64,000 nt of DNA from contig JAJEKV010000037.1 in the NCBI GenBank assembly GCA_021234155.1, positions 558,001 through 622,000 on the forward strand, in the 5' to 3' direction. Of the stretch, positions 9,051-33,600 are shown one piece after another (position 1 is the first letter of the stretch; the number at the start of each line of letters is the position of its first letter). The notes below the pieces were generated by a model. It saw nothing but the letters and a program-made list of their open reading frames with translations, was not told the DNA's origin and searched no databases. The position numbers were made by a program, and so were the translations under genes. The DNA is from Isoetes taiwanensis (Eukaryota > Streptophyta > Lycopodiopsida > Isoetales > Isoetaceae).

Positions 9051-9055
9051 ATAAA

Positions 9056-11600: not shown

Positions 11601-11697
11601 AGGATTGTGTAAAATCAAGATTTGAATCCAAGTTCTATGTGTCATGGTGTTCCTCTTGGAACAAGTTTTCAGAAGATTTCTATTCTAAACTGCAATT

Positions 11698-11886
11698 ATG
11701 AAGATGAGGCTCTTCCAAGAAGACATCCCTGGCGTATATATACAACAGGAAAGCGTGGGCACATTTGTAGCATGGCCAAAAGAACGCCCGAAAAAGGTAT
11801 GTATATTTGGATATTCAAAAAAAAAAAGAATATATCATATCATCCAAGGTGATGTTGTGAATTTTGTATTCTTTGATGCTCTTTAG
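11698..11886 (+). CDS. Element A small forward ORF
   Basis: A 62-codon frame reads MKMRLFQEDIPGVYIQQES, then VAWPKERPKKVCIFGYSKKK and a hydrophobic C-terminus. It stops 10 bp before a strong hairpin (11897-11945). The composition is protein-like but unrecognised. It may be a last exon, since upstream text in another frame also looks coding. Confidence 0.35.
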   Translation: MKMRLFQEDIPGVYIQQESVGTFVAWPKERPKKVCIFGYSKKKRIYHIIQGDVVNFVFFDAL

Positions 11887-11896
11887 TTGTTATATC

Positions 11897-11945
11897 AACC
11901 CCATGAAACTACACATTAATGAAAATATGTAGTTTCTTGGGGTTG
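11897..11945. terminator. Hairpin downstream of the small ORF in element A
   Basis: Arms of about 21 bp (left part CAACCCCATGAAACTACACA, right part its near complement ending TTTCTTGGGGTTGG) surround a short AT-rich loop. Two or three mismatches. It begins 10 bp after the ORF stop. Position suggests RNA 3'-end formation or a palindromic insertion; function inferred only. Confidence 0.45.
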
Positions 11946-12037
11946 GTCATAACGGGCCGGAGGGCATCACAGATTCAATGTTTTCGACATTGCATATAAA
12001 AAAAAAAAATAAACTAATGACAGAAAAGTATAGTGCA

Positions 12038-12120
12038 AAATTGCGCCAGCGCGAAGTTTGTATTCATATTCCAAAAAGTTATGTACATTTCTTCTTCGCA
12101 AAATGCGCCAGCGCCGAATT
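12038..12120. repeat. Element A palindrome cluster 3 (two units)
   Basis: AAATTGCGCCAGCGCGAAGT and AAATGCGCCAGCGCCGAATT begin about 62 bp apart. They share the GCGCCAGCGC core of cluster 2. Confidence 0.7.
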
Positions 12121-12291
12121 CTTTCTATCTCTACAATATGTCGGGCCAGCCCACTTCATCCGCCTAATCCCGCAAGAAGTCCCACCTGAACCACCCTCGA
12201 TATGACAGATCCTCATCTTTCCCGAGGATGTCGAAGTCTCCAAACCAGAGTGTTGTATCGATCCCCGATACTATAAATCAAATCCTTGTAC

Positions 12292-12540
12292 TTATTTGTT
12301 GGCATGAGCCTTACTAAGAGCATGAGGAGTCCGATATGTCCATAGATGCGATGGAAGTGTACCCATGGCCCCGATACAGCCGCCTAATGGATTCTCCAAC
12401 TCTCTTTGAACGTTTTGAACAAAGACACTCAAGTAATATCTTGTACGTGGTCCAGAGTTGATGGTCGCCCGTGGAACTAGAAAGCCCATTTGTATTTGAA
12501 CCAGCCAAAGGTCCATGCATAAGGAAAATCCATGGCACTA
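12292..12540 (-). CDS. Element A unknown reverse ORF
   Basis: Two overlapping 74-codon frames are open. The more protein-like one (from 12516) includes GFLVPRATINSGPRTRYYL and VFVQNVQRELENPLGGC, which suggests a beta-rich segment and an amphipathic helix. It lies between palindrome clusters 3 and 4, as the locus B genes lie between theirs. The family is unknown and the frame uncertain. Confidence 0.3.
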
Positions 12541-12574
12541 GAACGAGAGAAAGTAATTAGCACGATCTATTTAT

Positions 12575-12699
12575 ACGCTACCGGGCGCGATTTGTATAGA
12601 GCCGTATGAAATTGAAATGCCAACTAAAACGCTACCGGGCGCGATTTGATTAACCTAGTGGAAAACGAACCCAAAATAGAAATGCGCCAAGCGCGATTT
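12575..12699. repeat. Element A palindrome cluster 4 (three units)
   Basis: ACGCTACCGGGCGCGATTT occurs at 12575 and 12629, and AATGCGCCAAGCGCGATTT at 12681. The period is 52-54 bp. Confidence 0.78.
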
Positions 12700-12919
12700 C
12701 TCCCATTCCAACATATTATTCTAACAAAATACATAATGCGTAATGAGAATAATGCGAGAATGCGTAATTCAAAATATAAAGCCGCTTAGATATTGTTTAG
12801 TTCTTTATTTACTCCTTGTTTAACTCCTTGTTTAGTTCAATATAACTCCTTGTTTAGTTCAATATTTAGTTCATTGTTTTAGTTCATTATTTAGAACAGA
12901 TAGAGGAAGAGCTAGTGAA

Positions 12920-12969
12920 GATCTATGATCTTGCTCTATGATCTAGATCATAGAGCAAGATCATAGATC
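12920..12969. repeat. 50-bp perfect palindrome
   Basis: The two 25-bp halves meet at the centre GATCT/AGATC and match perfectly, with no loop. Each half contains GATCTATGATC and TTGCTCTATGATCT. It lies in the middle of element A, close to the switch from leftward to rightward genes. Confidence 0.9.
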
Positions 12970-13780
12970 GATATGAAATAGAACGAGATAGAGTAATATG
13001 ATATGATAGAGAACAGATATGATATGAAATAGAACCGATGCATGTAAAAGTAAATAACATGCTTTATGGAAAATAACTACTTTATGTAAATAACAGTAAA
13101 TACTAACCCGAGAAACCTTAAGAAGTGATTCGAGAAGCCTTAAGAAGCCGAGAAAAAGCAATAGCAGCTAATTTGGAGAAAAAGCAATAGCAAATTTTGA
13201 GAAGCTTTAACACAAAAACCAAAGTTATTCAAAGTCGAAAAAGCCAAAAAACCGTAAAACCTTGTATAGAGCCTACAAACCTTGTATAGAACCTTGTATT
13301 GAGCCGAAAAAGCATATAGAAGCCTAAAAGCATATAGAAGCCGAAGTTTAAAGCGTAAAAGCGTAAAAGCCGAAGTAGAAACCTTTTAAAAAAAAAAAAC
13401 CTTTGAGCCGAAAAAAAAAAAAAACCCTAAAGCGTAAGATTGTAGAAGCAGTAAAAACTCGAAGCGCAGATAAAAACAGATAAAAACAGATTGTAGAAGC
13501 CGAAAAGCGCAGATAAAAAAACAGATAAAAAGCGATAGAAGCCGAAGTTTAAAGCGATAGACGCCGAGAAGCCGAGATTGAAGCGTAAGCCAAGTTTGAA
13601 GCAGATAATAGAAGCCGAGAAGCGATTGAAGCAAATAGAAGCCGAGAAGAAATTGGAAGCGTAAAGCGAGAAATTGGAAGCTACGAATGCCCGGAATTGG
13701 AAGTTTAAAAGTGAGAGAGAAAAGTTCAAAACGAATGCTAACTTGAAATAATAACGCTTTCAAAATTTTGTACCCGCCAT
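12970..13780. repeat. Low-complexity purine-rich tract
   Basis: Degenerate repeats of AGAAGCCGA, AAAGCGTAAAAGCC and AGATAAAAACAGAT units fill about 13090-13730. Before them lies ATATGATATGAAATAGAAC-type text. The long reverse frames here (Phe/Leu-rich) come from the purine bias and are not genes. Confidence 0.75.
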
Positions 13781-13799
13781 TATAACTTCCGCATGAAAA

Positions 13800-14070
13800 A
13801 TTTATTGCACGGGTTAATTGTTTTAAGGACCATGAAGTTTATCCCTTGTAATAACAATGTTAAATTTATTATAAGGGTTATTATAGGATACCAAGGTTAT
13901 CCCTTGTAATAATAAGGTTAAATTTATTATAAGGGTTATTATAGGATACCAAGGTTATCCCTTTAATGGTTAAGTTAACCTTTTAAGGTTAACCCTCATA
14001 AGGGTTATCCTTTTACAAGGTTAAAATTTATTACAAAGGTTATTATAGGATACAAGTTATAAGGCTAATA
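13800..14070. repeat. Tandem AT-rich repeat
   Basis: A unit near 65 bp containing GGTTATCCCTTGTAATAA and TTATTATAAGGGTTATTATA is repeated at 13840-13970 and decays to about 14060. Several short inverted matches (AAGGTT/AACCTT) could form hairpins. Confidence 0.7.
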
Positions 14071-14227
14071 AGTAGAGGGTTTTATTTATATATAATGTTG
14101 AGGAAAATAACTTGGGGAATCCCATTATATAAATAGAATGATCAAATAGAATAAGACATATGAGGCTTTCATTTATGAACATGTTATTGAGAGGTTATTT
14201 GGATATGCTAACTTACTATATATTTTT

Positions 14228-17200
14228 ATGCATTCTAGGTCAATGGCATGCAAAATGCTAAAAAATAAAGCCCCTAATGATGCTGATCAAGGCAAGGAAA
14301 AATCCCCAACTAATGAACATGATGGCCAAGGAAAGGAAAATACCTCAAATGATGTTCATGATGGCAAAGGAAAGGAAAAGACTCCAAATGATGTTGATGA
14401 TGGCAAAGGAAAGGAAAAAGGCCTCAAATGAAAAGGATGATGCCAAAGGAAAGGAAATTGTAATTTTATACTCGGGTCGATTGGAAAAACAAAAGGTCAA
14501 GATCCCGTGATGCATGCAAATGCAGAGAGGCAAGAGGGAGAAGGGATTATTGTTCTAGCAGATCCTATCAATGCAAAGTGAATGATGAAAGATTAGGGGA
14601 GGACAAAGTTAGGTGTGGCAATCTCAAAATTATATGACAATTGGAAGGAAAAGGGTTCAGTGCAAACAAGAATGCCTAGCTTTGTGTGAAGCAACTAGAG
14701 GTTCCAACTATTGTTGCATGGCCTAGGGACAAGATTCAACCGGAGGGGAACTACACGTTTCCTATAGATGTAGAACCATTGTCAACAATGTTCACACAAA
14801 AAGTGTAGCAAGAGGCCACTTCCAACTTTCAAACATTATCCCACCAAAAGATGCAAGTCGATTATGATTGTTCTCCGAAGCTATGATGAAGGTTAGAGGA
14901 GGTGAATGTTGTTGGGCTTCTTGTGTTAGAATGTTCACAATAGAGGAGTTGGTGGGAGCAAGAGCTACATATCAGGAACATAAGTGTGATAGCGGGAGGA
15001 ATTTCATGTACACCATATTTGGCTATGCAATTCAGTGATGAAAGATCAAAGAAGAAAAGATTCCCATTGAATGGAAAGTGGATATGTTCAAAAGCATGGA
15101 TGGCTATACATGGAATTCCAACCTCTTCTTGGCACAACCGGCAAAAAGAGACATGAAAATGGTAGTAAAATTGCATTGCATGGGAACACCGGCCCGGTAA
15201 GGCCTACCTCAAGAACTATAGCTGCAAAGGAAATATTTGAAAGATATGTGGATTTCAATGCGTAAAACATGCCACATAAGAGTAAGAAGGATGAGTGGTA
15301 GAGTTATTGTTGAAAAGAGATTGCCATCCCATTGTACCCGTAAGAGCATATTAGAGGAAATAAATGCATTGCTTCGGGAACTTGGAGTGGCCTCTATATC
15401 CAGCCCAGCTTTTAGTAGGCTATGGAATAAGCATTTCAAGCATGTGACCATAGCAACTTCAAACAACTTTGCCAAGTGCAATTTATGTGCTAAGCTGAAG
15501 GAGACACTAGATAAGACCTGGCAACCAAGTCTAAGGGCAAAGATAAGGGAACATATGAAGGACCATATGACGATCAACTATCATGTAGATCAACTTATTG
15601 GATGTGGAGGACCTTATCCGCAATGGAACCTAATAACTATCTATGTATTATACATGATAAAATGGACCAACAGAAGACTTGTCTTCCACAATTCAAGTAC
15701 ATTCCTAAGTCATGTGGAAGATCATACCCTTGCGCAGAGATTTCAATGACTGGGGCAATATTGCATGGGCAGTCTCGGACTTATTATGGCCATTTCAGTT
15801 TTAGAGTTGTGGAGTGATGGTCCAGATTTTCACATTGGGAGTATCATGAGGTGTTTAAGAAACTATGAGAAGGGTTACAATGGTCACCTCATGAGGATCC
15901 CAGACTAGCCGTGCACTACATAGTGCATTGTTGGATGGAACCCCTAATAGTATTGAAAAGTTTAGCAAGGCAAGATTTAGGAGGAATGGACCTAATGAAC
16001 ATGTTGGAGCTTCAACATCTCGTGCTAAACCCTCGAGATCTGCCCGTAAAAGCTCCTCTTGCAACTAGATAATTGTGCTGGTCAAAATAAGAATAGGTGG
16101 ATGTTTTCTTTCCTATCCTACTTAATGTACCGTGGGTATTTTTGAAAGAGTCAATTTGGGGTTCCTAATGCCCGGACATACTCATGAGGATGTGGATGCA
16201 TTGTTTGGAAAATATAGTCATGTATTGAGACAGCAGACAGTTACCAACTTTCCCAGGCTATTGGAAATATTTCATGGATGTACAAATCCATCTCCTATAG
16301 GATCTATCATAGAAGAAGTGCCTGATTGGAAGAGTTTTGTGGATGGTTATGCTCTCGACATGGAAGGTCATTCTAGACCCTTCAATTCACTTTTGGGTGA
16401 GAGAAGGGATTCCAATCATGCAATGGAAAATGAGACCTTCAGAGGAGAAGTGGAGAGGTGGGGCAGAAATTTGGCGCAGGGATGCAAATGGCAAGCCTAT
16501 GATACCTCCTGGTCAACCAAAAGCTCTAAAACCAACTGAAGAAGTCAAGCAATTGGGCTTGACTAAGGATGGCATCAATGACTACATCAAGCATTGGCAA
16601 ACTAATTCAGATGAGACTAATCGCATTGATAGATTATTGGAAGAAGGTGATCAACTTGTTGGATGAGGTAGACACATCCTCGTAACACACCGCCGGAAGG
16701 GTGGTTCCCTAAAAGTAAGTGGAAAACATTAATGGGTGCCGACGAAGATGATGGTACCATTAGTAGCATTGTGAAGGCATATGCTCCTCCTCAATCTGAT
16801 AAACACTATGTTGGTCCTAAGAAGGATAGGCCAAAATATCTAGGCATGGATTGTTATGAACCTTCTACTGACGTGGAGTGCCACCAATTTGTAGTAGTAA
16901 AACCAGCAGATCTAGAGACCTATCCAGTGTGGTTGGGATGGACTATCTCGGATATTTGCAAAGAAGAAGGTGATGTTAACTTCAATAAGGTGCGCGTGGA
17001 ATGGTGGTGTCCAAAGACATCGGGTTGAGTAATGTCACCGATAAAGAAAGATATTCAGATTGTTGGACAAAGAGGTGGAGGAGAAATCCTAGTGATCCTG
17101 ATCTTTGGCTAGACATTGAAACCGTATTGTACTCATGGACTCCAAAAACTATTCCTAGTAAAACAGCGAGAGTTACAATACCTCAGGATGTAAGGAATAA

Positions 17201-17240
17201 GGTTCTCATATCCTTGGGGATGTTGGTGGAAAAATGATTC
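14228..17240 (+). pseudogene. Element A transposase-like gene (DUF7869 type), frameshifted
   Basis: Coding text runs forward through at least eight frame changes. The N-terminus (14228-14410) is a tandem of a unit ending GKGKE. A middle part (15300-15600) has a zinc-like FAKCNLCAKLKETLD. The best block spans about 16060-16260: a LDN-type motif followed by NKNR, an aromatic helix, then GFLMPGHTHEDVDALFG. An LDN-x-NKN motif followed by GHTHEDxD is characteristic of DUF7869-type proteins, which are widespread in eukaryotic mobile DNA; I take them as RNase H-like DDE enzymes. The C-terminal part (16730-17240) has WLGWTISDI and an end 215 bp before the right inverted repeat. Likely the enzyme that moved element A, now broken. 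Confidence 0.72.
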
Positions 17241-17455
17241 TCAGTTACTATGTATCAATCACTTTTAATAAAAGTTGTGTACTACTTGAGTTTCATGATA
17301 TATGATTTTGTAATTTGAAGTTAAGGTGTGAATTTATATTCCCGTGTGTGATTATATGTTAACGTCTATTCTAGTCTAAGGGCAACAAAGTTACTAAAAA
17401 AGTGAATTTAACAAAGTTACTAAAAAAGTGCAATATAAAATTTATCCCAAAATTA

Positions 17456-17487
17456 AGACATAATCCCAATTTAATTGAATGATGGTT
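17456..17487 (-). repeat. Element A right terminal inverted repeat
   Basis: It ends AATTGAATGATGGTT and is a perfect 32-bp reverse complement of 5325-5356. TAAT follows, then TCCGGCCAT, which continues the gypsy1 integrase reading. Confidence 0.92.
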
Positions 17488-17491
17488 TAAT

Positions 17492-18750
17492 TCCGGCCAT
17501 GTAACACTTCAACATTAGAAGTAGCTACGTCTGGCCGGGTATGAAGAAGCAGATAATCAGACATATCCAAGAATGTCAGCGGAGCCAGCAGACAAGGGCG
17601 GAACAATTTTGAATTCCAGGAGTTTTGGAACCTTGGGCGGTGCCAGACGCCAAGTGGAAAGTCTTCAGCATGGTTTTCATAGCGGGCCTTCCAAGGACAA
17701 CAAGAAGCTTTGAAACCTTGATGGTTGTGGTATATAACTTATCAAAAGGGCACATACTTGCCATGCCACACCATAGACACCGCCTTGGATCTAGTCGTGT
17801 GGTCTACATAAGAGTTCTTTTAGGCTGCATGGAATGCACAGGTCGATCATCACCAATAGAGATCCGAAGTTCTTTAGCGACGTTTAGCAAGACTTCTTCA
17901 ACACGAGCTGCACCAACTCGTTGATGAGTTTTGCTTATCTTTTGCAGTCAAATCGGCAAAGGGACTGCACCAACACAATTTTGGAGAGCACGTTGAGAAA
18001 CTATGATTGGAACAAGTAATCCAAATGGGCCGAGTACATCCACCTGGTCAATTACGTACAATAATATGAAGCAAGAGTCATCGAAGATGTCTCATTCATG
18101 ATCAGTTACAGTTATCAATGCTTGACCCTAGTTATGTGGCATAATCTAGTGCCCAAGATGGAAGTTTCTCAACAACGACAGCATATATGCGGTAGCTTTT
18201 AGTAGAAGTGTAAGAATATCTTCAAACAGCATGGGCATATCTGAAGAGTCTAGCAGATAGACATAAAACTCCTCGAGAGTTGTTTCGCTATGAGAGATAA
18301 AGTTTGGCTCAAGTAAAGGTTAAGTAAGAGAAGCTTCGCATCGGCAATTGTAAGAAGCTCGCCCTAGGTGGCCCGGTCCGTTCAAGATCTTGGAGAAGAG
18401 TGGGCTCTCAGGCCTACAAGTTGGATCTCTCGGCCCACCTTAAGGTCTTCCATGTGAGATTATTCAAAAGGCACGATCCTAACCTTGATGAGGTTTTGGA
18501 TACTCCAATTTTGTTGGAAATGACGGAGGAACAAGTTGAAATTGTGCCTGAATTACTTCTTGACAAGTCATTCAAGAAGACTAGGAGGTCCCAATTCCTC
18601 CGGTATTTGGTCAAGTGGAAGCACTTGCCCGTGGAAGACGCGACATGGGTATTGAAGCAGGATTTGGAGAAGCAATACCCAGAGTTTAGGAAGGAGTTTG
18701 ATGTGCGAGTCATCTCCGATTTGGTCGACGCCGACTTGCCAGGAGGTTAG
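17492..18750 (+). pseudogene. Gypsy1 integrase core and chromodomain remnant
   Basis: It resumes the integrase cut by element A. WPGMKKQIIRHIQECQ completes the zinc-binding region, with the final Cys changed. VPDAKWKVFSMVFIAGLPR matches the first catalytic block, but the Asp of 'MDFI' is replaced. Decayed middle text follows. From 18400 a frame gives the C-terminal SH3-like ending and a chromodomain (FLRYLVKWKHLPVEDATWV, near 18595-18650) followed by LEKQYPEF. Chromodomains steer this lineage to chromatin. The chromodomain is intact; the catalytic part is dead. Confidence 0.85.
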
Positions 18751-18759
18751 CTTAGTATG

Positions 18760-19600
18760 TTTCTTAGTTAGCCTTAAGTTCTGGCTCATGTATTCTAGTT
18801 AGTAGAGTGCATGTGCCAGAATCTTGGAACGTGTGGGCGATGATGGGATACGCCTTTAAGGCATTCTCTAGGCCAACACGCACCAAGAGGTGCGCACGAC
18901 CATTAGGGTCATGTGAGTCAGGAATGAGGCATGGTGGGCGATGATGGGACATCGATCGGATGCTCTCTATGCCGCTGATGCGGGTACGCGACACCGGGCC
19001 GTAGGAGGGTCATGGTGAAGGTTAAAGTGATCATGCTGATGATGGGATCGCGGAGACGTTCCCTAGCTTAAAACCCTTGGGGCATGATGCACTGGGGTGT
19101 ACTCGATCTGGGGGATCGTGTACAAGGTAGCACTTGATCATGGGCGATGATAGGATCATCTTAAATGGTCCTTAAGCTCAAATCCTTATGGGGCCATGAT
19201 CGGGTGCAAGGTGGTAGGGTAACCTTGAGCTGGTAGTTCGGCTCAAGGAGGTAGGTAAGGGGGGTGGTCCCCTAAAACCACAAACTTATTAACTTATATA
19301 ACGTAATGTGCTACTTGTGCAGGCCAGTGAAGGGAAGCATGAAGGAGGGAGCACGTTACGAGAAGATAGGAGTCATAGATTTTAGACTAACTATGAACTC
19401 CTAAATTTGTTTTAATAATATTATATGTGTATACTTTTATAATAATAATTGTTATAGCTATATAATGTTTTTATAAACTTATAAATATAGCTTTATAATT
19501 ACATAATAAGTAATTAACGAAAAGTTGATCTTTTCAATAGAGTTAAGTTCATATATTTTTGTTGTTGTTTTGCAGGAACAAGGTAGGTTCGTCACCTTAG
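18760..19600 (+). other. Gypsy1 3' untranslated stretch with repeated motif
   Basis: A motif near GGGCGATGATGGGAT recurs at about 18835, 18937, 19031 and 19142, each followed by a short C/T-rich segment and 'AAGC/GGCAT'. No gene is seen. The equivalent reverse-strand part of gypsy2 (60900-61200) also has CGATGATGAGACC-like text. Confidence 0.55.
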
Positions 19601-19602
19601 TG

Positions 19603-19639
19603 CAATGCTGAGGACAGCATTGTCCTAAGGGGGGGAGAA
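19603..19639 (+). promoter_or_regulatory. Gypsy1 hairpin plus polypurine tract
   Basis: AATGCTGAGGACAGCATT can form a 7-bp stem with loop AGGA. After a short gap comes AAGGGGGGGAGAA, the polypurine tract that primes plus-strand DNA, directly before the 3' LTR. Gypsy2 has the same arrangement. Confidence 0.8.
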
Positions 19640-21139
19640 TGTGACGTTCCAGAGGAATATACGCTATGAATAGGTATATTCCTGGACCCGTCACTATACA
19701 AGTCTACCTATGTAGACTTGTATACTTAGGAATGTGGCAAGGGGTGCACATCTAAGTTAATTCCTTAACTTAGATAACCTTAGGATAAGGCCCTTTTCCA
19801 CATGGCCTTATCCTATTGGGCAACTGCCACACGGCCCCATCCTAGTGGTGCCACGTGGCATCCTATGTGGACCTACCCTATATTTAGCAGAAACCCTAAC
19901 CCTAGGCCTCTTTTCCGGCCCTAGCACCCAGAGACTCATCTACGCACTCGAAACCTCGTTTCGAGTATCGTTTGCGGTGGCATAGATTGGGGCAGCAGCC
20001 CCCTGAGGGTAGATTCGACCTTGGAGCAAGCGTAGCTTCATCTGATTCGAAGACCATGGAGACGCCCGGGTTCGGAGGGAGTGCTTCAGGAGCAGGTATG
20101 TAGGGTAGTAGTCATAGTAGTTCATCTGGAATTAGCATTCCAGATGAGTTAGTATCTTGTATCTAGGGTAGAGCCGTCCTAGAACCCTCATTCATCATCT
20201 TGAACCCTAATCAAGGAACCCTAACTGTAAGTTAGATTTGTATGATTAGGTTAAGATGTTCTTCTTATGGTTATTCTCATGATATGATGATTATATGATG
20301 ATGGTTGATCATGTTTGCTCCTCTTGTATTGGGAAGGGGGGTAGATCCCTGCCGAGTGGGGGCTACGGGGGATCCCATAGTGGGCTAGGCTTATGGCCGG
20401 TCACTTAGTGTGGGCCGGGCATGGGTCTGACACCTCCTGGGGCAATGGTGTCGCCCTGCCTCTCGAGAGCTGCAAGTGTCGGCTTGGCTCTCGTTTTGGG
20501 GGGTTCAGTCGGGTACGGGTCGTGTGTCGCCACGACTCTCTAGCCGCCCGTGGAACCTCCAGACCCCGGGAAGGGGAGATGCAACCCTTCCTGCCTCATC
20601 GGACCAGGGAGATGCAACCTGGAGTAGTCCCGATGGGTGATACCATGGGATTACGTCTCCGGAAGGCCAGAGTCACGCCAGAGCCTGATTTAGCCCATCT
20701 GCAAAGTATGCACAGGAGGGGCGGATGGAGTGGTCAACCCTAGCCATTGTCTTATGCCAGCCCTCGCCATTGCCATGACTCGGTCTGCTCTATCTTGAGG
20801 TCTAGCCGGTCAGTCATCCTCCTTACGAGTCTGAGCCCTGGGTAGGAGCTCTCATGTTTTACGGTTTATGATTATCATCTTTGCACTTGTGGATGTATGA
20901 TGGACTACCCTTCGAGGTAGTATTTGTATTATTGATGCTAGTTCTGACATGTTTATCGCTTCCGCTGTTATAGGAGCCCATAGGGGAAGGGCGCGCAAGA
21001 CACCTTCGTGTCCCCTCCCCGCACTAGGGTCACCTCAGAGTGCGGGGCAGACGAAGGGCCTGTGCGGTTGTTGAGCCGGATGGGGGATTTCCTGCCGAGT
21101 GTACGGCCGGGTGCCGTATGTTTAGCAGGGAGCGTCACA
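19640..21139 (+). repeat. Gypsy1 3' LTR
   Basis: 1.5 kb, from TGTGACGTTCCAG to GGGAGCGTCACA, with termini that are inverted copies (TGTGACG/CGTCACA). It follows a polypurine tract and is followed by the TAATC target duplication. The segment AACCCTAACCCTAGGCC near 19895 is shared with the 5' copy. Confidence 0.92.
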
Positions 21140-21197
21140 TAATCCGTCATTCATTATATTTTGAAGAAATCAACTAATTGGGTTGCTGGTATCTCAG

Positions 21198-22060
21198 GGC
21201 TCTGTATTTCCGATGTGCTGGACCTGGAACCATCGAGTTCTATCACAAGCATCTTCCGTGCTTTCTATTATGATATTGGATCCTTGCTTTTTGAAGGTCA
21301 AACAGAAGTGCAGCTGCGGGAAAGGGGGATTTGGTTCTTAAAATATGAGTATTATCCTCGGAAAGGCAAAATTGTGGACTTACCATTGCCCCCATTATCA
21401 CAGCTTAGTTCCTGCCCAATGGATTCCAGTTCTCTATTTCTTGCCAAGCTGAAATTGTCACAGGAAATTTTCAGTGCTTTGAAGGAGAAAGGTGGAGTCC
21501 GTGGACACGCGGAAAGTAAATGTACCCATCGATATGTTTATTACGTTGTTTAAGAATGTCGAGAATGTCAAGAAGACTTCAAAAATGTTTACCGTAAGTG
21601 ATTGTCATTGTTTTCGGATGACATTTTATGTGATGAATGGTCATCCGCCTCGCATGAAGGAGTTGAGGAGGTACATTGCAGGATAAAGAAAGAAAGCGTT
21701 CGAATCAGGTATTGTATTCGAAAGCAAACAGTTTACATTACCTTCAAATACAGAAGATGGAGAGAAGTAAAAGAAGGGAGCAGATGGACGTGGGTTCCAG
21801 TGGAACAAGACGATGCTGATGGTACCCATTCTGCGGTCATTGATATTGCTATCTTTAAAAGTGGTCAATTGTTTAAAACCTTAAAAGTCGAAGAAGCATG
21901 GTCTTTATTTGATGTAAGAATTATTTTGGAATCAGAATGTGACTTAAACATCTTCCATTTTTTGGTGGATGGTGTCAAGGTAGGAAAACGTAGGGAAGAG
22001 TTGTATACAACAAAGCTCTGTATGCCTCCTGTTGTACTTTCTTTAAGTGAAAACAGTTAA
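21198..22060 (+). pseudogene. Gene B1, remaining exons (unknown protein)
   Basis: It continues exon 588-858 after acceptor TATCTCAG at 21197, in frame. The first stretch includes LCISDVLDLEPSSSITS and a basic RERGIWFLKYEYYPRKGK. An extra G near 21490 shifts the frame into RKVNVPIDMFITLFKNV. Another shift near 21680 leads to a long C-terminal block with Trp- and Lys-rich WREVKEGSRWTWVPVEQ and a final KLCMPPVVLSLSENS before the stop. The two shifts could be decay or assembly errors. About 370 residues in total. The C-terminal block has alternating hydrophobic strands, perhaps a beta-rich domain. No family recognised. Confidence 0.5.
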
Positions 22061-22455: not shown

Positions 22456-23983
22456 ATGTCAAACGGCAGGTCAGAGAAAGCTTGGGAACAGTTCCAGGCA
22501 TGGTATGACCAGATCGTCAGGAAGGAAGTAGAGCATCGGCCATCACACCTGATGAGTTCGCCAACGTACCGAAAACCCGGTAGACGCCACTGTAGTCTAC
22601 AATAACTTCTGCCTAACGGTAGATATAATCTCTGAGGCTAACAAACACATTGATGTGTATGGTCAGTACATTCAGAGCTTCATGGCCGGGCGTAAAACAA
22701 GCTGGCGCCCTTCTCCCTCGATGGGAAGATTGTATTGAGTCTAAAGTCCTTTTTCAAGCTTTTTCCCAAAGGTGACCATGATAAGGTTCAAGGTCGCTCA
22801 AGAGACCGCCAAATTTAATTTATGTGAGAAGGATGGGAAGGATAATTTATATCCAATTGACATCATGTTTGCTACTTACATGATACATACGGTTCCACCA
22901 ACAGATAGGGGAAGAACCACGGTGTGAAGGCTATTGCAGAACCTCTCACCACTGTAGAGGAGGTATTTGATGCAAAGAGAAAGAGCGTAAAACGGTGGAA
23001 AAGCTCGACGAGGACGAGGATGAAGACGTAGACGAGCATGAAGAGAATCTTGATAGATGGGGTGTCACGGAAGCCTTGCCAGTTAACATAGGAGGGAAGG
23101 ACTATCTTCTTCTCCATGATATATCTTCCATTACTGGTTTGAGGGAAGATGATGTCCTTGGACAAATCTATGCTTTCGTTGTTGGTCTAGACGACTTCAC
23201 TGACTTCGAGCCGGAAGTGCCTAGGGAGCTGCACGATCTCTTAACCTATGATGGAACTTCAATAGCTCCTGAGAATGCTTTTGATAGAGTTCTGGAGATG
23301 GCAGAAATGGGCTTGAAGGAAGTCTCAGACGTAAAGTTCGAGGCGAGTTTATCAGAAGCTGAAAAAGATAGTGCAAAACAAGTATCAAAGAGCGAATCAA
23401 GCTCTTCCAGATCGTCCATCAACATTTCTACCAAAGGGGTTATTGCATCTGATGAAGTGGAGGTAAGCTACCATAAGTTTGCTTATTTTGTTAAGTGCCT
23501 AAGAACGATTGTTTATTGCGCAGGAGATTTTTGTGGACGATTTTTGCGCCAGACATGACAGAGTTAGCCTTGGCAGAGATGCAAGTATCGCCCACTATAT
23601 GGGCTACCTTTATAAGGGAGAGATCGTTGTGTTCCATTCTAAGTACAGCCCATATGGACCAGAAAGAGGTTTTGAAACTCAAGGCCCTCTCGTTAATTGG
23701 TAATCACATCCCATTATCTGCCAATTCTGATCGAGTAGTGGCTGTTAGGAGAGATATCGCCACGCATATTTTTGGTGGCTTTAGTATGTATTCTATGGCT
23801 GCCAGTGGAGCTGCTTTGGCCTTGTCCGGCGTGGGTAAGGCTACAATTCGACTGACTTGGGAAGAGAGGGAGCCCCAGATTCCTCGCCTTATGTACCTGT
23901 TGGATGCTGGTCTGCAGGAGTCCGAATTGGAAGAAGTCGAAGTGTCCGATGACTTACATGTTTCTAAGAAAATGAAGTTGTAA
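22456..23983 (+). pseudogene. Gene B2, multi-exon unknown protein with tiny introns
   Basis: An ATG at 22456 opens MSNGRSEKAWEQFQAWYDQI; the next 500 bp are coding-like but change frame several times. From about 22995 a long acidic frame starts (LDEDEDEDVDEHEEN) and includes PVNIGGKDYLLLHDISSITG. Two small introns follow. One is 23463-23523 (GTAAGC to GCGCAG, 61 bp); one is 23700-23748 (GTAATC to GTTAG, 49 bp). Splicing both keeps the frame to the stop at 23983. The last exon has ATHIFGGFSMYSMAASGAAL and an acidic end DDLHVSKKMKL. The family is unknown. Introns this short are unusual for land plants. Confidence 0.5.
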
Positions 23984-24335: not shown

Positions 24336-25658
24336 ATGGCACAGAATAGTGGTAATGCCGGATCTAACAATCCTAGCAACCAAAGAGCAGAAGAGAAGGC
24401 GCTGTCTGGGCGCACACATGATGGGCACGACAGCGAGGGCCGCGCCACTAACTATGTCAGTGCTTCTAACAACCAGAACAAAGCTCAGTCTTCCGAGCCA
24501 GAAAACATCCATCAAGCAGGTCTGGACGCTGTAGTTCAGAATGTTGCCGATGGGGCAGAGGAGATTTTTAGAGACATACCTTCCGAGCCAAGGTGTGTTT
24601 ACCTGTTCTCTGCTGGCCATTTAGTCGGAGAAGGAACTTTTGTGCAGGCAGCTGTCTGTCATGGAGTTCCTGTGCCTGATGATTGCATCGTCGTTAACGT
24701 CGATGTAGTAGTTGCACCAGACACGCAGTTGCCTGTTCCTTCGATGGGAGCTGACAACTTGCTTGAGGCACTCCATTCCTTTGTCGTGTGGCCCAGGTTG
24801 ATGGCTTCCTTGTACACATTTTCTCTGCTGGTTAATGAGATAGATTACATTATCGGACTTCCTCGTAGAGTGCCGGAAGTTGGATCGGTGGAGGTAAATC
24901 GGGGGCCAGACTTGCTTGGAGCTGACAATGAGAATGTTCCTGTCCAGAATCTGCCTGTCCTGAATGTGCCTGTCCAGAATGTCCACAATGAGGATGTGCC
25001 TGTCCAGAATGTTCCTATTCCTGTTCAGACTGTATTCGAACCCCTGAATGTTATGTATCAGGGTGTCCCTGTACAGGTCCCTGTGATAGCTCAAATCGCA
25101 GAGAATATCATTGTACAAGAGGCAGCTGCAGTACCTGTGACGGTTGTACCTGAAACCGTAGTACCAGATACAGTAGTGGTTCCTGTTGTTGAGCTGCCAT
25201 TAGAGGTCGTGGAATCCAGTAGACATAAGAGAAAGTCTAAAAAGCCTAAGCAGCTGCAGAAGAAACAGGTTCTCTGTAAAGGCCCTCCTAAGCTGAATAA
25301 GAAGGGCCAGCCGTTTAAGCCAAAGTATAGATAGATTCGGGAAATCCGGCACTTCCAGAACCACGTGGAGTGGGTGCTTCCGAAGCTCACAATGGCTAGA
25401 ATATGTAGGGAGACGGTTCAGGAGAGATACATTAAGATGAAGAGCGATAGTAGAAGGTACCGGAATGCTGGTAGAAGTTTTCCAATGCCAGAAGAGGTGA
25501 CTCGCTTCACTGCAGATGCCCTTGATGCTCTGCACGAGGTCGCTGAGAATCACATGGTCAGGTTCTTCGAAGACTGTGTGAAATGTGCTGTGCATTCCAA
25601 GAGAGTGACAATAATGAGGCAGGATATTGCCTTGACAAATTACTTCCGAGGCATGTAA
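24336..25658 (+). pseudogene. Gene B3: DUF8039-like domain joined to a histone H3-like fold
   Basis: The ATG at 24336 follows an acceptor-like TTACAATTCAG. Residues 1-80 are Ser/Asn/Gln-rich. Residues 84-157 match the plant transposon-associated DUF8039 pattern: CVYLFSAGHLVGEG, AVCHGVPVPDDCIVVNVDVV, then LHSFVVWPRLM. Residues 195-255 repeat a Val-Pro-Val-Gln-Asn unit. Next is a basic stretch (RHKRKSKKPKQLQKK) ending KPKYR. One TAG at 25332 interrupts. The same frame then continues for 107 codons as an H3-like fold: IREIRHFQ (alpha-N), a loop 1 longer than H3 by about 22 residues, TADALDALHEVAENHMVRFF (alpha-2), and CAVHSKRVTIMRQDI (loop 2, alpha-3). The basic KPKYR/REIR junction lies where H3 has its tail-to-fold boundary. 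The TAG may be a true stop, decay or error. Confidence 0.8.
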
Positions 25659-25749
25659 AGTGTTTTATATTAATGAAACGGTTTTTGTTGTAGATTTTGT
25701 TTGCTTGCTAAGTATTTTGATTGTATCTATTCTCTATGTATATCTACAC

Positions 25750-25880
25750 TGCACCGTTGCCACGGTGCGAAATGCATGTAAATTTTGTGAGGGCAGGCAT
25801 TTTCGCACCGTGGCCATGGTGCGAAATTCCTTTAAGTTACTGTGTGAGGGCAGGCAATTTCGCACCGTTACGGTGCGAAA
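25750..25880. repeat. Locus B palindrome cluster 3 (three units)
   Basis: Cores start at 25751, 25805 and 25862 (54, 57 bp). The third is shortened to GCACCGTTACGGTGC. The spacers share GTGAGGGCAGGCA, so this cluster arose by tandem duplication of a 57-bp unit. It follows B3. Confidence 0.9.
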
Positions 25881-26129: not shown

Positions 26130-26819
26130 TCACGCCAGATCCCACCGATTCTTCCCACCATATGGGTTCGATGTGGAGGGTTCTCCCCACCATATGGGAT
26201 ACCTAGTCATTAGAAAAAGTAATTCCACATGATGATACTCACGGAAGAAGAGCGGACCCAACTCCACAAAGTTGTTGTACTCGTTGTAGTACGCCCTAAT
26301 AAGGCCATACATCTGTCCCTTACAAATTTCATGAATGAACTCGATATGTATTGATCCGCAGAGTGTGCTAAATAAACAAAGACGTAAGAAGAGGCCTCAA
26401 CGGCCAGTAGCATCTCGCCCGTGATAAGGAGGGGGTTCAAGAATTCCCCTCATTGCAAGTCTCCTATAACATTCGGGATGGATTAATTTCCATCGGTGGC
26501 TCATGACCACAATCAAATCGCCCAGAATGAAGTTGATCAACTCCATTGCAAGCTCCTTGGTGGGACCGTGATGCAACCTCCACTCCAAGAAATGGTCAAA
26601 TAGCTCATCAGGGGCCAGGCCGCATGTAATGTCCGGGGCATGCTTGCGTGCCTTCCGAGTAGCCCAGGAGGATTGGGTCCAATCATTTGCAAAGAGCACG
26701 AAGATCAAGTAGCAAAGAACAAGGAGCACGAAGATCAAGTAGCAAGGAACACGAAGATCAAGTAGCAAAGAACAGGGATCAAGATCAAGTAGCAAGAAGC
26801 AAGGATCAAGGAAGATCAA
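26130..26819 (-). pseudogene. Gene B4, leftward unknown protein (paralog of B5)
   Basis: The coding-like part starts near 26690: PDITCGLAPDELFDHFLEWR, then HHGPTKELAMELINFILGD, GILEPPPYHG, a frame change, and MYGLIRAYYNEYNNFVELG to a stop near 26130. Each block has a counterpart in B5 (RWRHGPTTELARQLINFI, GLLEPPSDL, IYILIELYNFHYKSFVDIG), so the two genes are paralogs. It looks like an all-helical soluble domain. The open frame upstream of 26690 is repeat-derived and not part of the gene. The family is unknown. Confidence 0.5.
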
Positions 26820-26960
26820 GGAGCAAGAAGATCAAGGGACAAGGAAGATCATGGAGCAAGGAAGCAAGGAACAAGATCAAGTAGCAAGATCAAGAGCAAG
26901 GAACAAGATGAAGTAGCGAAGAACAAGGATCAAGATCAAGTAGCAAGGAACAAGGAAGAC
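26680..26960 (+). repeat. Degenerate tandem repeat AAGATCAAGTAGCAAGGAAC
   Basis: About a dozen imperfect copies of a 20-28-bp unit. It lies just upstream of B4. Open frames across it (Lys/Asp/Gln-rich on one strand, Leu/Cys-rich on the other) are artefacts. Confidence 0.85.
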
Positions 26961-27483: not shown

Positions 27484-28010
27484 TTATATCAGTCTATACA
27501 CATATTCCAATGGAGTATCTTTACCCGCGGATATGTCCAGATTATGTGCTTTGGTGCTATGTAGCCATAGGTCACGTGTATCCCAAGGAATTGTATCCCA
27601 GTCGGGGAATTTAGACAGTAACCACAGGATGTTGAAGTCAAGGGATTGGAATAGGAGCTTACCAATATCCACAAAAGATTTGTAATGGAAGTTGTAAAGT
27701 TCAATGAGGATATAAATCCTATTCTTTTCACTAGTAGGAATGACCAGAGGTGCATAGTGATCCAGAGAGTAGGCCATGAAACCATGGAAAAGCATGTCCT
27801 TCAACTGTTCTAGCCTATCTTCTAAATCTGAGGGGGGTTCAAGAAGTCCCAAAGTACTTAGAGTGAACCTTGCATGACTCGAATTGATCTCCTTCAGTAG
27901 AGGGAGATGACGAGTATAGCGATCGATAATGAAGTTGATCAACTGCCTTGCAAGCTCTGTGGTTGGACCGTGACGCCATCGATGCTCCCAAAAGTTGCAA
28001 AAAAAGTCAT
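27484..28010 (-). CDS. Gene B5, leftward unknown protein (paralog of B4)
   Basis: The reverse strand is open from about 27942 to 27484, with text continuing upstream in another frame (HRWRHGPTTELARQLINF near 27950). The sequence includes HLPLLKEINSSHARFTLS, GLLEPPSDLEDRLEQLKDML, IYILIELYNFHYKSF and WDTIPWDTRDLWLHSTKAHN. It is a better-preserved copy of the B4 family, predicted mostly helical. One shift near 27945 separates the N-terminal part. Function unknown. Confidence 0.5.
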
Positions 28011-28080
28011 CAAAAGTGCACGATTTTTGCCAGATGCTTGCAGGTATTCGGATCAGCCCAATGAGGATGTTCTTGCAAAG

Positions 28081-28260: not shown

Positions 28261-28357
28261 ATGCCTATTTAAAGAGAAACCAGGTATATATGCTATATAA
28301 CGTATTATTATATTTACATGTGTATTTTGTACATTATGCTCAGATATATAACCAATA

Positions 28358-28717
28358 ATGCCGCTACATAAAGGCATGTCAATAATTTTGTTCGACATAA
28401 GTACTGACTCCATTCAATGCGTAAGGCATCCATTTGCTATGTCTCGCCTGGTTATTCTTATTACTGTGGGGTCTACCTTTGCCTCCTCGTCCCAAGATAT
28501 AGACTCCATTACTTGCACTATGAAATATAATGATCTTTATAGATGTTCTCAGAGGGGTATCCCCCTTGATCCCTGGCTGGAAGGAGTAGCAGAGGGTCAA
28601 AATCGTTCTTCCAACGGGTTTTATCGTGTTGTTATCCACCTTCATCGGGTTCCAGAGCGTCGCGTCTATGAGATTAATCGCATCACTCAACTACCGCTCA
28701 TGATGATCCCGACATAA
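28358..28717 (+). CDS. Gene B6, small unknown protein
   Basis: A 119-codon forward frame includes MSRLVILITVGSTFASSSQD, then MKYNDLYRCSQRGIPLDPWL and FYRVVIHLHRVPERRVYEI. Alternating hydrophobic residues suggest beta strands with one hydrophobic core segment. It is the last gene-like frame of locus B and is followed by a worn palindrome cluster. No family recognised. Confidence 0.4.
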   Translation: MPLHKGMSIILFDISTDSIQCVRHPFAMSRLVILITVGSTFASSSQDIDSITCTMKYNDLYRCSQRGIPLDPWLEGVAEGQNRSSNGFYRVVIHLHRVPERRVYEINRITQLPLMMIPT

Positions 28718-28919: not shown

Positions 28920-29190
28920 TTCGCAGTGTGTGTAGTCACGGTGCGAAATTGCACCTTCCAAAACGTTGAATCGTATTATTTTCAAGACCGCATGACGGTG
29001 CGTAAATAGACCTTCCCATCGAATGTGGAATAGTCATTTTCAAGACCGCGCCCACCAACCGGGCCACGGTGCTAATATTGGTTATTCCATAACTAATTCC
29101 CAAATTAAGATCGGTACACGCGGTAATAATACTTGTCATTCATCAATTGAATACCAACTAAGTTCGCACCATGCCCACGCTGCCAGCCTA
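28920..29190. repeat. Locus B palindrome cluster 5 (worn, about four units)
   Basis: Half-conserved units end CACGGTGCG/GACGGTGCG/CCACGGTGC near 28941, 28999 and 29069, and one starts GCACCATGCCCACG at 29166. Spacing is 58, 70 and about 97 bp. The decay suggests the right edge of locus B is near here. Confidence 0.7.
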
Positions 29191-29342
29191 ACATATTTGA
29201 AACATTATAGTTGCACATCATGGTCAATAGTTATACATTAATATGAATTTGTTCATACAATTGAAACCCCGTATATATCTTTCTACCCCGCCTCGATCCT
29301 TGTGGATCGCCAACGCTTTAACTTGTCGGGCTGCGACTAGAG

Positions 29343-30470
29343 CTACACCATATCCGTTTTTTTTCCCCGCTCAACTTTACTCCTCAATATTCTAGCCAAC
29401 ATCGTGTCTTGTTTAGCTTTATCTTTTTCTCTAGCTTGCGATAATCCTCCTATAGAACCATTGGCACATCTGTTGTAATGAGTTACCACACCTAACCTCG
29501 ATGTTGTGTGAACTTGAAAAAAAGCATTCTTGGCTTGCTTATGTGACTTCTCCATTCCTGCAGATTCTATATTCCCAAGCTCCCCGCACTCTTTGGCAAA
29601 CCACAAGCCATGGGCGTGAAGTATATGAATGTAATGTGTGCATTGCATTCTCCCCATGCTTGTATAAACGACTTCGTGAATTCAGTTACTGCTACTTTGA
29701 ATTCATCTAACTTTCCACCCACCATTTTCTTCTCTGCCATCAAAGTTACCGACCGCTTCAGATTCTCGCCACGCTTTAATTTTCTTTTAGTTTTGCCCTC
29801 CCACGTGAAGTACGGTCATCTTCGCTACCAAAGAAGTCCTTATACCCCTCCCACTTTCCAGTTGGCAATGATCCATTCTTACGTAATTTAGTACAAGGAA
29901 GAAATCTTTTCGCTTTCACCCCACCCATGGATGGTTTACAAGGAACCTTGCCTCCCTTCTTAGGATCTTGCAAGATTTTATAATCACCACCATGAAGACC
30001 AAGATCAAAAAGCACGTTCTCAACATCTTTCATACACTTTTCTCTGGCTGATTGTGGAGATTTATTCCAAGCAAAAAGAATGCTCATGTACACCATCTTA
30101 TCCACTATTCTTAGAAAGGCATGGAGAGTGCAGATATGTACTCTCTTCATGTGAATTGCAAGCACGGGGATCAAAGTTTCATTCCTCCTTCTCACGATTG
30201 GTTCAAAGATCCCGGTCACATTCGAGAGTATTCATTCCCTTCCCCTTATCATCTACCCTAGCATACAAACAGTAAGGACATGCGTGGGTAGTCTTATCAG
30301 AACCATGTTTCATGTTATACATGCACTTGATGGTCTTTAGATTAGCAGCCAAATGCCATTCAACCTCGTAATCTCCGTAGCCAGGAACCTGAAGCTTCTC
30401 TTCGACTCCATGAGCAGCAATAATAGTAGGAATAGGTGTCTGCTGAAAGACCCACTGAAGAACAGCATGA
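29343..30470 (-). pseudogene. Transposase-like gene, C-terminal half
   Basis: Reverse-strand text from about 30470 reads PGYGDYEVEWHLAANLKTIK, then a zinc-like THACPYCLYARVD. It continues as TGIFEPIVRRRNETLIPVLA with THAFLRIVDKM-like text (LHAFLRIVDKMVY), a basic KKGGKVPCKPSMGG, and a late block with HAHGLWFAKECGELGNIES. The order 'DLK-C-x2-C ... LH..LRI.D ... H..G..' is typical of uncharacterised transposon-borne proteins in eukaryotes. Several shifts make it a pseudogene. It abuts, head to head, a forward fragment starting near 30480. Confidence 0.5.
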
Positions 30471-30479
30471 GGGAGAGGA

Positions 30480-31310
30480 AAAAAGAACTGAAGGCCCTAA
30501 ATGTTAAAGCCCCTAGTGGTGGGGGCTCTAGAAGAAGAATCCACGCTATTAAAAATCTGATGGATCCTACTATGGCTGAAAAGAAGAAGAGAAAACCTTG
30601 TAATATGGCTAGTTTGTTGAAAAAGCTTGTAACTAAAGATGATGTTATAGATATGTTGAAGCTTCCTGGAGCTAACCATTTAAGAAAAGCTGTTGTTGAA
30701 TAGGTGCTTACTGAATTGAGAAAGAGTCAAAGTGCTGATGGCATGCAAGAATTATGTGACAATGTGGGTATCAGTCGACAAGCTTACATTGCTCTCTTTA
30801 GATGTTTGCAGGATGGTATCAAGCAACAGGGTATTACAAAAACAATACTGCCAAGACTCGTTATGTCGAGCAAAGCGTAACAAAGAGGAATGCGTATACA
30901 CTAACATTTGGGAGAGATGTACCAGATCACCACATCCGATGCACTTGGGATCACTAATCACCGGGAAAAGTAAGAAGAAGGGTGGCTCGGAAATGATCTA
31001 TTTGTTCTTAATGAGAAGAATAATTGTTGGATGGATCTCTCTAAAATGCTTCTTCTGTTAGTTCGCTTCTATGATATGAAAGTGGAAGAATGTGCAGGGA
31101 AACTCCAAATTGCTATAAAGTTGGATGAGATGGAACTGATCAAAGGTGAAAAGTATGAGAGGGTTTCTTTGACATTAATGAACAGGGCGTTGTCAAATTC
31201 TGATAATGAGGAAGGGAAGTTCTCTGTTCAATCAGAGGACCATATTTGCTGGATAGGGATATTTCAAGTACCGGAAGAAAATCATGGCCATTGGTGTCAT
31301 CTTCAATCTT
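30480..31310 (+). pseudogene. Transposase-like gene, N-terminal half (inverted relative to the other half)
   Basis: The forward text has a basic start, SLLKKLVTKDDVIDMLKL, then LCDNVGISRQAYIALFRCLQ, which resembles the helix-turn-helix-like start of the same class of transposon proteins. After stops comes WMDLSKMLLLLVRFYDMKVE and SVQSEDHICWIGIFQVPEEN. The two fragments point away from each other, so an inversion is likely. The shared identity of the halves is inferred. Confidence 0.4.
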
Positions 31311-31319
31311 TTTAACTTC

Positions 31320-32240
31320 CTCTCCAGTTTGTCATTGTCCTCAGAGCATCTCTTCAATCCTTGTTTGAGTGACTCCACCTCCATAAGCAACCTTTGATTG
31401 GAAGCTTGCAGTTCATCTGTATTCTTAGACCTGTTGGTTAAGAAATAGTTACACTGTTGGAGGTAATTACAGTGTGCTATCATATTGCAATGCACTCCAC
31501 ACAATTGATTGTACATTGTTCTCAAATGCACATCAGAATGACTTGAAATATTATTGCAATAGCCAAGCAGACTTTGATTACCCTTACAGGCAAAATGAAT
31601 AAGCCCCGATGCGTAATGAAATTGTGGATGTCTTCGGTGATCGGATCGATGGGATACAGATCCCCCACGCACCCGCAGAGATCAATATTCATTGCACCGT
31701 AAGCTCAAGAGCATTCTCATCGACTGTTCCTTCCGATTATATTGATTTTTGTAGGGCAAGCAATTCTTGGGCACCTCCACCTTGAATTGGCCTCTCCGCT
31801 TTCAGATTCAAAAAGAATTACTCATTGTCATTGCCCAAATTCATAGAATAGTTACCTCTGCCATAGATCGAATTCAGAGTCGCTATGGATCGCTTTCCGA
31901 GCTTCACAGCCGGGTGACCAAATTGATGCAATTCTTCGCCAAAAATTAAGGAAAACTAGAGAATTCCTTCGATTTGGGCGCAGGATTGACATCAATACTA
32001 AATTCAAATGCCCTCCAAAGCTTTGGCGCCCAATTGAGGCATTCTTGAGGTCCCCGGCCAAGCTACTCCCCTCAGAGCTTCAGTTCTCGTGGGAAGGTGG
32101 GGGAGGAGGGATTTAGGCGAATGAGTAAAACAACAAGTAATAATGACGCTTTAACAGTTCGGGTTGCTCCGTATTGAGGTTCGGTTAAGGTTCGTGGGGG
32201 CTTTTTGCCCATACCTGCAGGTTCGGGTACCAACTAAAAT
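31320..32240. other. Unassigned repeat-derived stretch
   Basis: The reverse frame 31232-31672 contains a helical QRLLMEVESLKQGLKRCSED heptad-like segment, but its surroundings are broken. The forward frame 31767-31949 is short. This is probably residue of the fragments on either side. Nothing further can be supported. Confidence 0.3.
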
Positions 32241-32249
32241 CCAAATTTG

Positions 32250-33600
32250 GGAAGGCCTTACAAGGGTGTTAATAGACTCCACCAAATCTCAATGCTTATT
32301 AGTCTTTGCACAAGGTGCAGTTCAAACTTAGAAGAGATAAACATGTCAGAAGAGCCACAATCCAATAACACAACAACGTTTCGGCCCATGGTTCTGCCCA
32401 AGAATCTAATAACCCATCCAGCAAACATATCCATGATGTCTTTGCTTGCGGCCTTGTACAACACGCACAGCTCCTCCATGGCAATGGCTGAAACCGTCTT
32501 AGATTCCAATACTTCTCCAGTCTTTTCAGTCACGTTTGCTTTCTTGTTATCAGCTTTCTTGTTCTGTGGCTGAGAGCATTCACGACTAATGTGCCCAGGC
32601 TCCCCACACCTATAGCAGAAAATCCCCTTCCTGGGACCACCCGACTTAGAGTCCACTTTACGCTTCTTGGACTCTCCACCTGTAGACTTAAGCTTAGGCT
32701 GCTCAGATTTTCAGACTTTTTTTTCTTGAAAAACCTATTTTTCTTCTTCGAGAACTTCCGGGACGTCCTCTTAAAGGACTCATCCTCTTCCCCAAGCTGA
32801 CGAACCAATATCGTTGCCCTCTCAAAATCCTCAGGCTTCAACCCGACATTCCGCTTTTGAGAGCACACCGATAGCCCACCTAGGAAGAAATCAACCTGCC
32901 GAGCCTCGGACAAGTCTCCAACCCTGTGGATATAACCCCGTACCTTATTGATATAAGCACTAAGAGAACATGTCTGCTTACAGTACCGCAGCTTCTCAAG
33001 CGTATCACGAGTATTTCCTGAAATCGGACCAGGTATTAACCTCTTTCTTCATAGTAGGGCCATTCCACCAACTATAGGCATCCGATTTCAGTCGCATCTG
33101 TGCAATAAACAACCGCGCCTTATCACCTTTATTGGTAGCCTCAAAAAAGGTCTCTAGCTTGTCAATCCAAGCCATCGCCTCCTCAGCAGTGCCTTTCCCA
33201 TCCCAATCTGGGATCTTTGTGTGCTCGAGACTGCGGATGTCCTCCTTGCTCAACCGAACTCTTGGTGGATCGCTCTACAAAGAAAGACTAGTACTGTGTA
33301 CATCTGGGTCCACCACCACTACTGCTGGAGACTTCCCCTTCTCCGCAGACTTCCCTAGGCCATCTATGCCAGCAAGGGTCTCCAATACAGTTCTCATGGT
33401 ACCGAAGTCTCTAATACGCCTTTGAGGCTCTATCAAGACACCCAACAAGTCCTCACCCCACTTCATCTGCATGGTCTCCAGGTTCTTCTAGGTTTCCTGT
33501 ACGTGAGCAGCTAGCCCCGGTACATCAGGTTCCTCCTCCATAGGAGTTGCCTGTCCCGCTATAGTATGTGCGCCTGCACTAGTCTCGCCGTGCTCCATCT
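32250..33600 (-). pseudogene. Gypsy4 gag-protease, truncated Ty3/gypsy
   Basis: Reading leftward: a gag matrix/capsid segment (TKIPDWDGKGTAEEAMAWID, then FIAQMRLKSDAYSWWNGPTM), and VDFFLGGLSVCSQKRNVGLK. Next comes a Lys-rich linker and a CCHC knuckle CYRCGEPGHISREC, which binds RNA during packaging. The retropepsin start follows, with active site LLDCGSSDMFIS, where D-T/S-G has become D-C-G. The reading ends near 32250; RT and integrase are missing. Shifts occur in the linker and between gag blocks. An LTR and primer site lie to its right. Confidence 0.85.

Follow-up and report, generated by a model that had tools for sequence, protein, structure and literature searches.

A gene of a multi-copy mobile element in Isoetes taiwanensis is predicted to encode a histone H3-type protein

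Can a mobile element supply a histone of its own? The question is raised by one frame in a 64,000-nucleotide stretch of the Isoetes taiwanensis genome (the window; contig JAJEKV010000037.1). An earlier note, made from the letters of the window, described a single forward frame at 24336-25658 interrupted by one TAG, with an H3-like fold in its last 107 codons. The frame is as described, and its one in-frame TAG occupies 25332-25334. We find that it is a broken copy of gene C, one of the genes of a DNA element that is ~12 kb long and present in many copies. Judged from its sequence, this gene of a mobile element encodes a histone H3-type protein, and the phenomenon is real and larger than the earlier note reported. 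Since an element gene ends in a histone H3 domain, the element may make a chromatin protein of its own.

The last 107 codons of gene C match the Pfam family Histone (PF00125; E=1.2e-15, 58.3 bits, with a curated cut-off of 26.4) and histone H3 chains in the PDB (best E=7.8e-13), which agrees with the H3-like fold first seen by eye. Other copies of the gene score 61.4-67.7 bits against PF00125, above the cut-off. The PDB match consists of two stretches flanking loop 1, the second of which contributes most of the score. When the TAG was masked, a check that the earlier note had proposed, the Histone match began at residue 296, ahead of the stop; hence, the H3 domain spans the TAG. Comparison with other copies (Table 1) identifies the TAG, as far as sequence can tell, as a lesion of the window copy alone. 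Loop 1, between ..VQ and RFT.., counts 27 residues on the alignment and that of H3 counts 6, a difference of 21 where about 22 had been estimated. Core residues R52, R69, R72, H113, R116, T118 and D123 (H3 numbering) are retained. An AlphaFold model of the 107 residues, made from the single sequence, was poor (pLDDT 61, pTM 0.41; helices at 2-44, 53-87 and 96-105), and because of this low confidence the assignment rests on sequence, which identifies a real histone fold of the H3 type. None of six H3-tail motifs (ARTK, ARKS, TKQT, GGK, KSAP, PRKQ) was found in the copies L036 and L039 or in the partial sequences L037 and L049.

Is the H3 part joined to the rest of the frame in other copies? The genome of the window copy (G000, 1.66 Gb; copies are labelled by contig, C, or locus, L) was searched with the 107-residue H3 part, and 150 places were scored of 5769 candidates; genome-wide totals are therefore lower bounds. 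In L036 (C985) and L039 (C1018), both halves of gene C lie in a single uninterrupted frame of 489 residues, open through the end of the stretch examined. When all 150 listed H3 places were set against 150 of the 151 matches to the N-terminal domain, this domain lay upstream on the same strand, at most 2.5 kb away, in 83 of the 150 scored places and 41 of the best 50, with a median gap of 547 bp to the H3 part. No other arrangement of the two within 3 kb was found among the 150 scored places. The other 67 have no listed upstream N-terminal domain, and many of these are fragments or diverged copies. The earlier note had suggested that a gene of mobile DNA carries an H3-like domain of its own, fused in frame to another domain; the frames of L036 and L039 and the 83 pairs support this, and they contradict the opposite outcome that it had allowed for, in which no histone match appears or the two domains always belong to separate genes. 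On these comparisons, the N-terminal domain and the H3 part are one gene.

A second subfamily of H3-like places is ~42-50% identical (about 46%) to the first over nearly the whole domain, and the N-terminal domains of the two subfamilies are 54% identical. In L037, a member of the second subfamily, the N-terminal domain is followed by the H3-type domain on one strand, in separate open stretches, and the H3 part matches H3.8 in the PDB with E=4e-18; in L038, no more than remains of the N-terminal domain are visible by eye. Because the loop insertion is common to both subfamilies, the pair of domains and the loop 1 insertion are probably older than the subfamily split.

What kind of element carries gene C? 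Comparison of copies delimits a unit of ~12 kb, at 44378-56156 in C394 and at 214-885 plus 21140-32292 in the window. It has at least seven genes, which in the window run A+, B+, C+, D-, E-, F+ and G- (Table 1).

Table 1. Features of the element copy in the window and of the sequence inserted in it
Feature	Position	Strand	Basis
Element left end (TTAGAG...) with the 5' portion of gene A (ATG near 588)	214..885	+	87% to C394 44378-45052; end common to four other copies
LTR retrotransposon, foreign to the element, inserted in gene A; LTRs from ~886 and ~19638	886..21138	+	LTR pieces 89-99% identical
Remainder of gene A, frameshifted	21140..22060	+	homologous frames in other copies
Array of four palindromes following gene A	22135..22342		
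Gene B, frameshifted; putative 61-nt GT-AG intron 23463-23523	22456..23983	+	sequence reading; homologues in other copies
Two palindromes 57 bp apart, following gene B	24083..24165		
Gene C: N-terminal domain, basic stretch and H3-type histone fold	24336..25658	+	TAG-broken copy; uninterrupted in L036 and L039
N-terminal domain of gene C, conserved; by eye DUF8039-like	24576..24812	+	subfamilies 54% identical; genome match C1042:582576-582812
In-frame TAG	25332..25334	+	0/5 other copies compared have a stop at the same place
H3-type histone-fold domain, long loop 1	25335..25655	+	Pfam, PDB, alignment
Palindrome array after genes C and D	25747..25880		strong RNA folding, z=-6.8
Gene D, paralogue of E	26397..26831	-	homologues in other copies
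Palindrome pair downstream of gene E	27173..27254		
Gene E	27484..28080	-	homologues in other copies
Gene F	28352..28717	+	homologues in other copies
Degenerate palindromes after gene F	28932..29187		
Region of transposase-like gene G, disrupted and with an internal inversion	29058..32290	-	88-94% to C394 in three pieces, one inverted
Right end of element; interrupted gypsy element resumes beyond	32280..32292	+	end comparison

As is the rule for a DNA transposon, the element is dispersed and multi-copy with shared ends: the left end was found in five copies and the right end in three, and the 150 scored H3-like places are spread across many contigs. The ends, TTAGAG... and ...CTCTA, have a weak inverted similarity that is short and imperfect (TAGAG plus scattered matches, ~11/14 by eye). 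A 21-nt inverted pair at 20942 and 32331 was weighed as a candidate terminal repeat but rejected. There is no target-site duplication at the window copy, where the protease frame of the gypsy element reads on (KFELHLVQRLISMYKVDGPFV) across the joined flanks, and none is obvious by eye at C394 and C35. Relative to A and B, the block from C to F has the opposite orientation in all five other copies that have enough genes to compare (C394, C904, C935, C35 and C479), so the window (24132-29084, versus C394 47828-52960) is the exception. Palindrome arrays sit at both of its breakpoints against C394 (24132 and 29084), and recombination between palindromes may have inverted C-D-E-F.

Several other features were seen in passing. 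The ~20-kb LTR retrotransposon has a flanking repeat of 4-5 bases (by eye), a chromodomain-like frame near its end and a DUF7869 frame at 16126-16539, perhaps a further insertion. A fragment of an NLI-interacting-factor-like phosphatase at 6403-6915 (Pfam NIF, E=3.4e-10) probably derives from a host gene, and a zf-RVT LINE is present (Pfam). Large inverted repeats span 36050-53675 (43222-44224 with 52020-52986, and 36050-36410 with 53315-53675), the main arms being 95-97% complementary. Gene B of copy C394 (L022:6218-6832) matches the kinetochore family Cnl2_NKP2 at E=0.043; this is under the cut-off and probably due to chance, and we made no use of it.

Gene G is transposase-like; its putative product is probably, though not certainly, a DDE enzyme of RAG1/Transib affinity. 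Among its listed protein relatives, 56 in number (best E=5.6e-97), is one from the fern Adiantum, and gene G has 107 matches in the genome from 98 scored candidates, some of them stop-free frames of 680-902 residues. Pfam gave no match for the C394 protein. Of 11 relatives scanned, one, the Adiantum homologue P0056, matches RAG1 in Pfam, with E=0.0019 and a score under the curated cut-off. With a three-row profile of gene G, RAG1 chains made up 4 of 9 PDB hits, at chance level (E 1.2-1.8) and all in the C-terminal part, where the catalytic Glu was placed by eye; gene G alone and a 16-row profile found no PDB match. The relatives P0003-P0058, metagenomic and fern sequences, make up a family that is nearly devoid of Pfam matches.

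The element also contains a near-perfect palindrome of 26 bp, TTTCGCACCGTGGCCACGGTGCGAAA, which occurs in arrays ~57 bp apart and in the window is confined to 22.1-29.2 kb. The genome contains 1731 palindromes with up to 2 mismatches; the reversed control gave 0. In the window, the nearest palindrome lies 75, 100, 89, 517, 230 and 215 bp beyond the stop codons of genes A to F, respectively, and the space between the divergent genes E and F has none. Downstream of gene C the nearest lies at 89-208 bp in 7/7 copies examined, and at 198-255 bp in three copies of the second subfamily on contig C907. As an RNA hairpin, the 26-mer has a predicted energy of -16.5 kcal/mol (z=-4.2). The palindromes follow A to F alike, and a role as 3'-end hairpins would fit as well as a role as binding sites.

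Several compact genes, each of A to F followed by a conserved palindrome able to form a hairpin, might also be expected of an endogenous DNA virus, in which case gene C would be a viral histone. We consider this very improbable: gene G resembles a transposase, the frames put through Pfam contained no recognised domain of a capsid, polymerase or packaging protein, and IMG/VR yielded neither the exact palindrome nor a tblastn-confirmed relative of the H3 part, the H3 alignment, gene E or gene G. Matches in PHROGs were weak and to families of unknown function alone (best E=0.0039, for gene B).

The N-terminal half of gene C is harder to place. The DUF8039 pattern that the earlier note saw there was not borne out by a Pfam HMM search: the half itself has no DUF8039 or transposon-family match at E<=1, and gene C fragments and other copies have none at E<=10, in a library that may lack a DUF8039 model. 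A profile of the domain aligns in hhalign with a hand-typed DUF8039-like consensus at 96%, and that consensus matches Transposase_23 (PF03017) at E=4.2e-4, slightly under the cut-off. Nothing on DUF8039 was found in the open-licence literature. The likeness is a lead only.

What might such a protein do for the element? Plant transposon silencing acts in part through marks on the histone H3 tail. We propose, with a probability of roughly 45%, that the element encodes an H3 variant tethered to its own DNA, and that nucleosomes lacking a modifiable H3 tail blunt silencing. The gene C product would be an element-specific H3 variant whose histone fold pairs with host H4. Its N-terminal domain would tether it to element DNA, possibly at the palindromes; since this domain has no Pfam match, DNA binding by it is a guess. 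Nucleosomes would then form on the element without the H3 tail that bears host silencing marks, and the element would thereby stay accessible for transcription and transposition.

Genes C and G adjoin: 45 of the 150 scored H3-like places, and 23 of the best 50, have a gene G match no more than 12 kb away (98 gene G matches; chance ~0.0014 per place). This proximity would suit an architectural subunit of transposition, one whose histone fold would bend the element's DNA, or wrap it, while the element excises and integrates, and would form no nucleosomes. However, the conservation of the H3-type helices points to H4 as a partner, and Pfam detected no H4-like partner in the element frames scanned; we regard such a role as improbable.

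Is the domain closer to H3 or to centromeric H3? Four sequence criteria are used for cenH3 candidates in PMC7052976: an insertion in loop 1, a divergent tail, absence of the alpha-1 glutamine and a divergent fold. All four are found in gene C; the alpha-1 motif reads LTMAR or LAFAR, versus LPFQR in H3. The fold of copy C985 is 37% identical to H3.1 and 31-36% to plant CENH3, and its bit scores against AtH3.1 and AtCENH3 are equal (62.8 and 62.8). In a tree of 11 rows, with six hand-typed references and host CENH3 missing, gene C forms a clade (93/95) beside neither H3 nor CENH3. The domain is, on sequence grounds, H3-type. Mimicry of a centromeric H3, which the earlier note had raised, thus has the cenH3 features in its favour, and the equal scores and the tree against it.

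Polymorphism among copies bears on the same issue. In 15 copies of the gene C domain, picked as stop-free, pN/pS was 0.31 for alphaN plus alpha1 (20 nonsynonymous and 17 synonymous changes; p=0.0008), 0.41 for alpha2-L2-alpha3 (35 and 23; p=0.002), 0.99 for loop 1 (44 and 11) and 0.51 for the whole domain. Among 12 close copies, the whole domain gave 1.05 (48 and 12), and loop 1 (25416-25499) had 29 nonsynonymous and 2 synonymous changes, an excess over neutrality that is not significant alone (p=0.07). Fisher's test of loop 1 against alpha2-alpha3 gave p=0.08 for the 12 close copies and p=0.026 for the 15. The histone helices are under purifying selection and loop 1 is not. This pattern therefore suggests that the helices were constrained over a longer span, that recent copies drift, and that loop 1 is free or fast; rapid evolution of loop 1 is possible.

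A fast-changing loop 1 would also be consistent with a CENH3-like protein that seeds centromere-like chromatin and so aids segregation or insertion near centromeres. The literature on the yeast 2-micron plasmid mentions Cse4, which might offer an analogy. With the loop 1 excess short of significance and no greater likeness to CENH3 than to H3, we consider this unlikely. Close copies at a pN/pS of ~1 and the many broken copies, that of the window included, could suggest a captured fragment of a host gene, a passenger without function for the element. The helices, however, were constrained over the 15 copies, two subfamilies ~46% identical both retain the fold together with the domain pair or remnants of it, and 24 of the 25 best H3-part matches have no stop within the matched stretch, which makes a passenger quite improbable.

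Gene C may have company. A search of the genome with the fold of Arabidopsis CENH3 scored 150 places of 7031 candidates, probably including ordinary H3 genes (frames of ~139 residues). Open frames of at least 300 residues occur at 66 of these 150 places, with recurring lengths of 463 (7 places) and 420 (5 places). In L049 (G000:C1045:18452640-18453050, 411 bases), a C-terminal near-canonical H3 follows a non-H3 tail; it has no loop insertion and keeps the alpha-1 glutamine. Such long-frame domains are perhaps a second mobile family with a C-terminal H3, and their recurrence would fit a recurrent benefit. We think it possible, if on the doubtful side, that transposons with histones make up a distinct class in this lineage, in which at least two families (long-loop and near-canonical H3) have each placed H3 at the end of an element protein and form nucleosomes that the host is unable to mark for silencing or that behave as centromeric ones.

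Beyond this genome, a set of 5.8 billion proteins gave one chance match (E=8.6) to the full gene C architecture and four candidates for the H3 part alone; because none of these reached E<=0.001, the set seems poor in gene C relatives. No description of a histone-carrying element like that of gene C was found in the open-licence literature.

If the element indeed makes an H3 variant without a modifiable tail, then a transposon answers silencing directly, with an H3 that lacks the usual tail motifs and varies in loop 1. Such an element would offer a natural experiment on what loop 1 and the tail of H3 contribute. Host genomes might also acquire H3 variants from it, centromeric-like ones among them.

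How does gene C compare with known systems? With H3 and CENH3/CENP-A it shares the histone fold, the signatures REIR..Q in alphaN, FED, C-x2-H-x2-RVT and D, and the position of a C-terminal H3 domain behind a basic stretch. It differs from both in a loop 1 that is ~21 residues longer, in the ~330 residues ahead of the domain and in its place in a multi-copy mobile element, and from canonical H3 in its lack of the tail motifs. By eye and by the hand-typed consensus, its N-terminal domain resembles TNP1/TnpA-type proteins of CACTA (En/Spm) elements or DUF8039 proteins; in contrast to CACTA, that domain has no Pfam match and no Tnp2-type transposase was recognised in the element. We know of no TNP1/TnpA-type or DUF8039 protein that ends in a histone fold. 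The likeness of gene G to RAG1/Transib consists of the RAG1 match below the cut-off and the C-terminal PDB hits, whereas the element shows neither a 5-bp target duplication nor ends of the CACWATG type, a Transib feature. Giant viruses and bracoviruses encode histones, and there, likewise, a mobile genome carries a histone of its own; the element described here, for which no viral relative was found, differs in being plant transposon-like and in that its histone is of the H3 type with a long loop 1.
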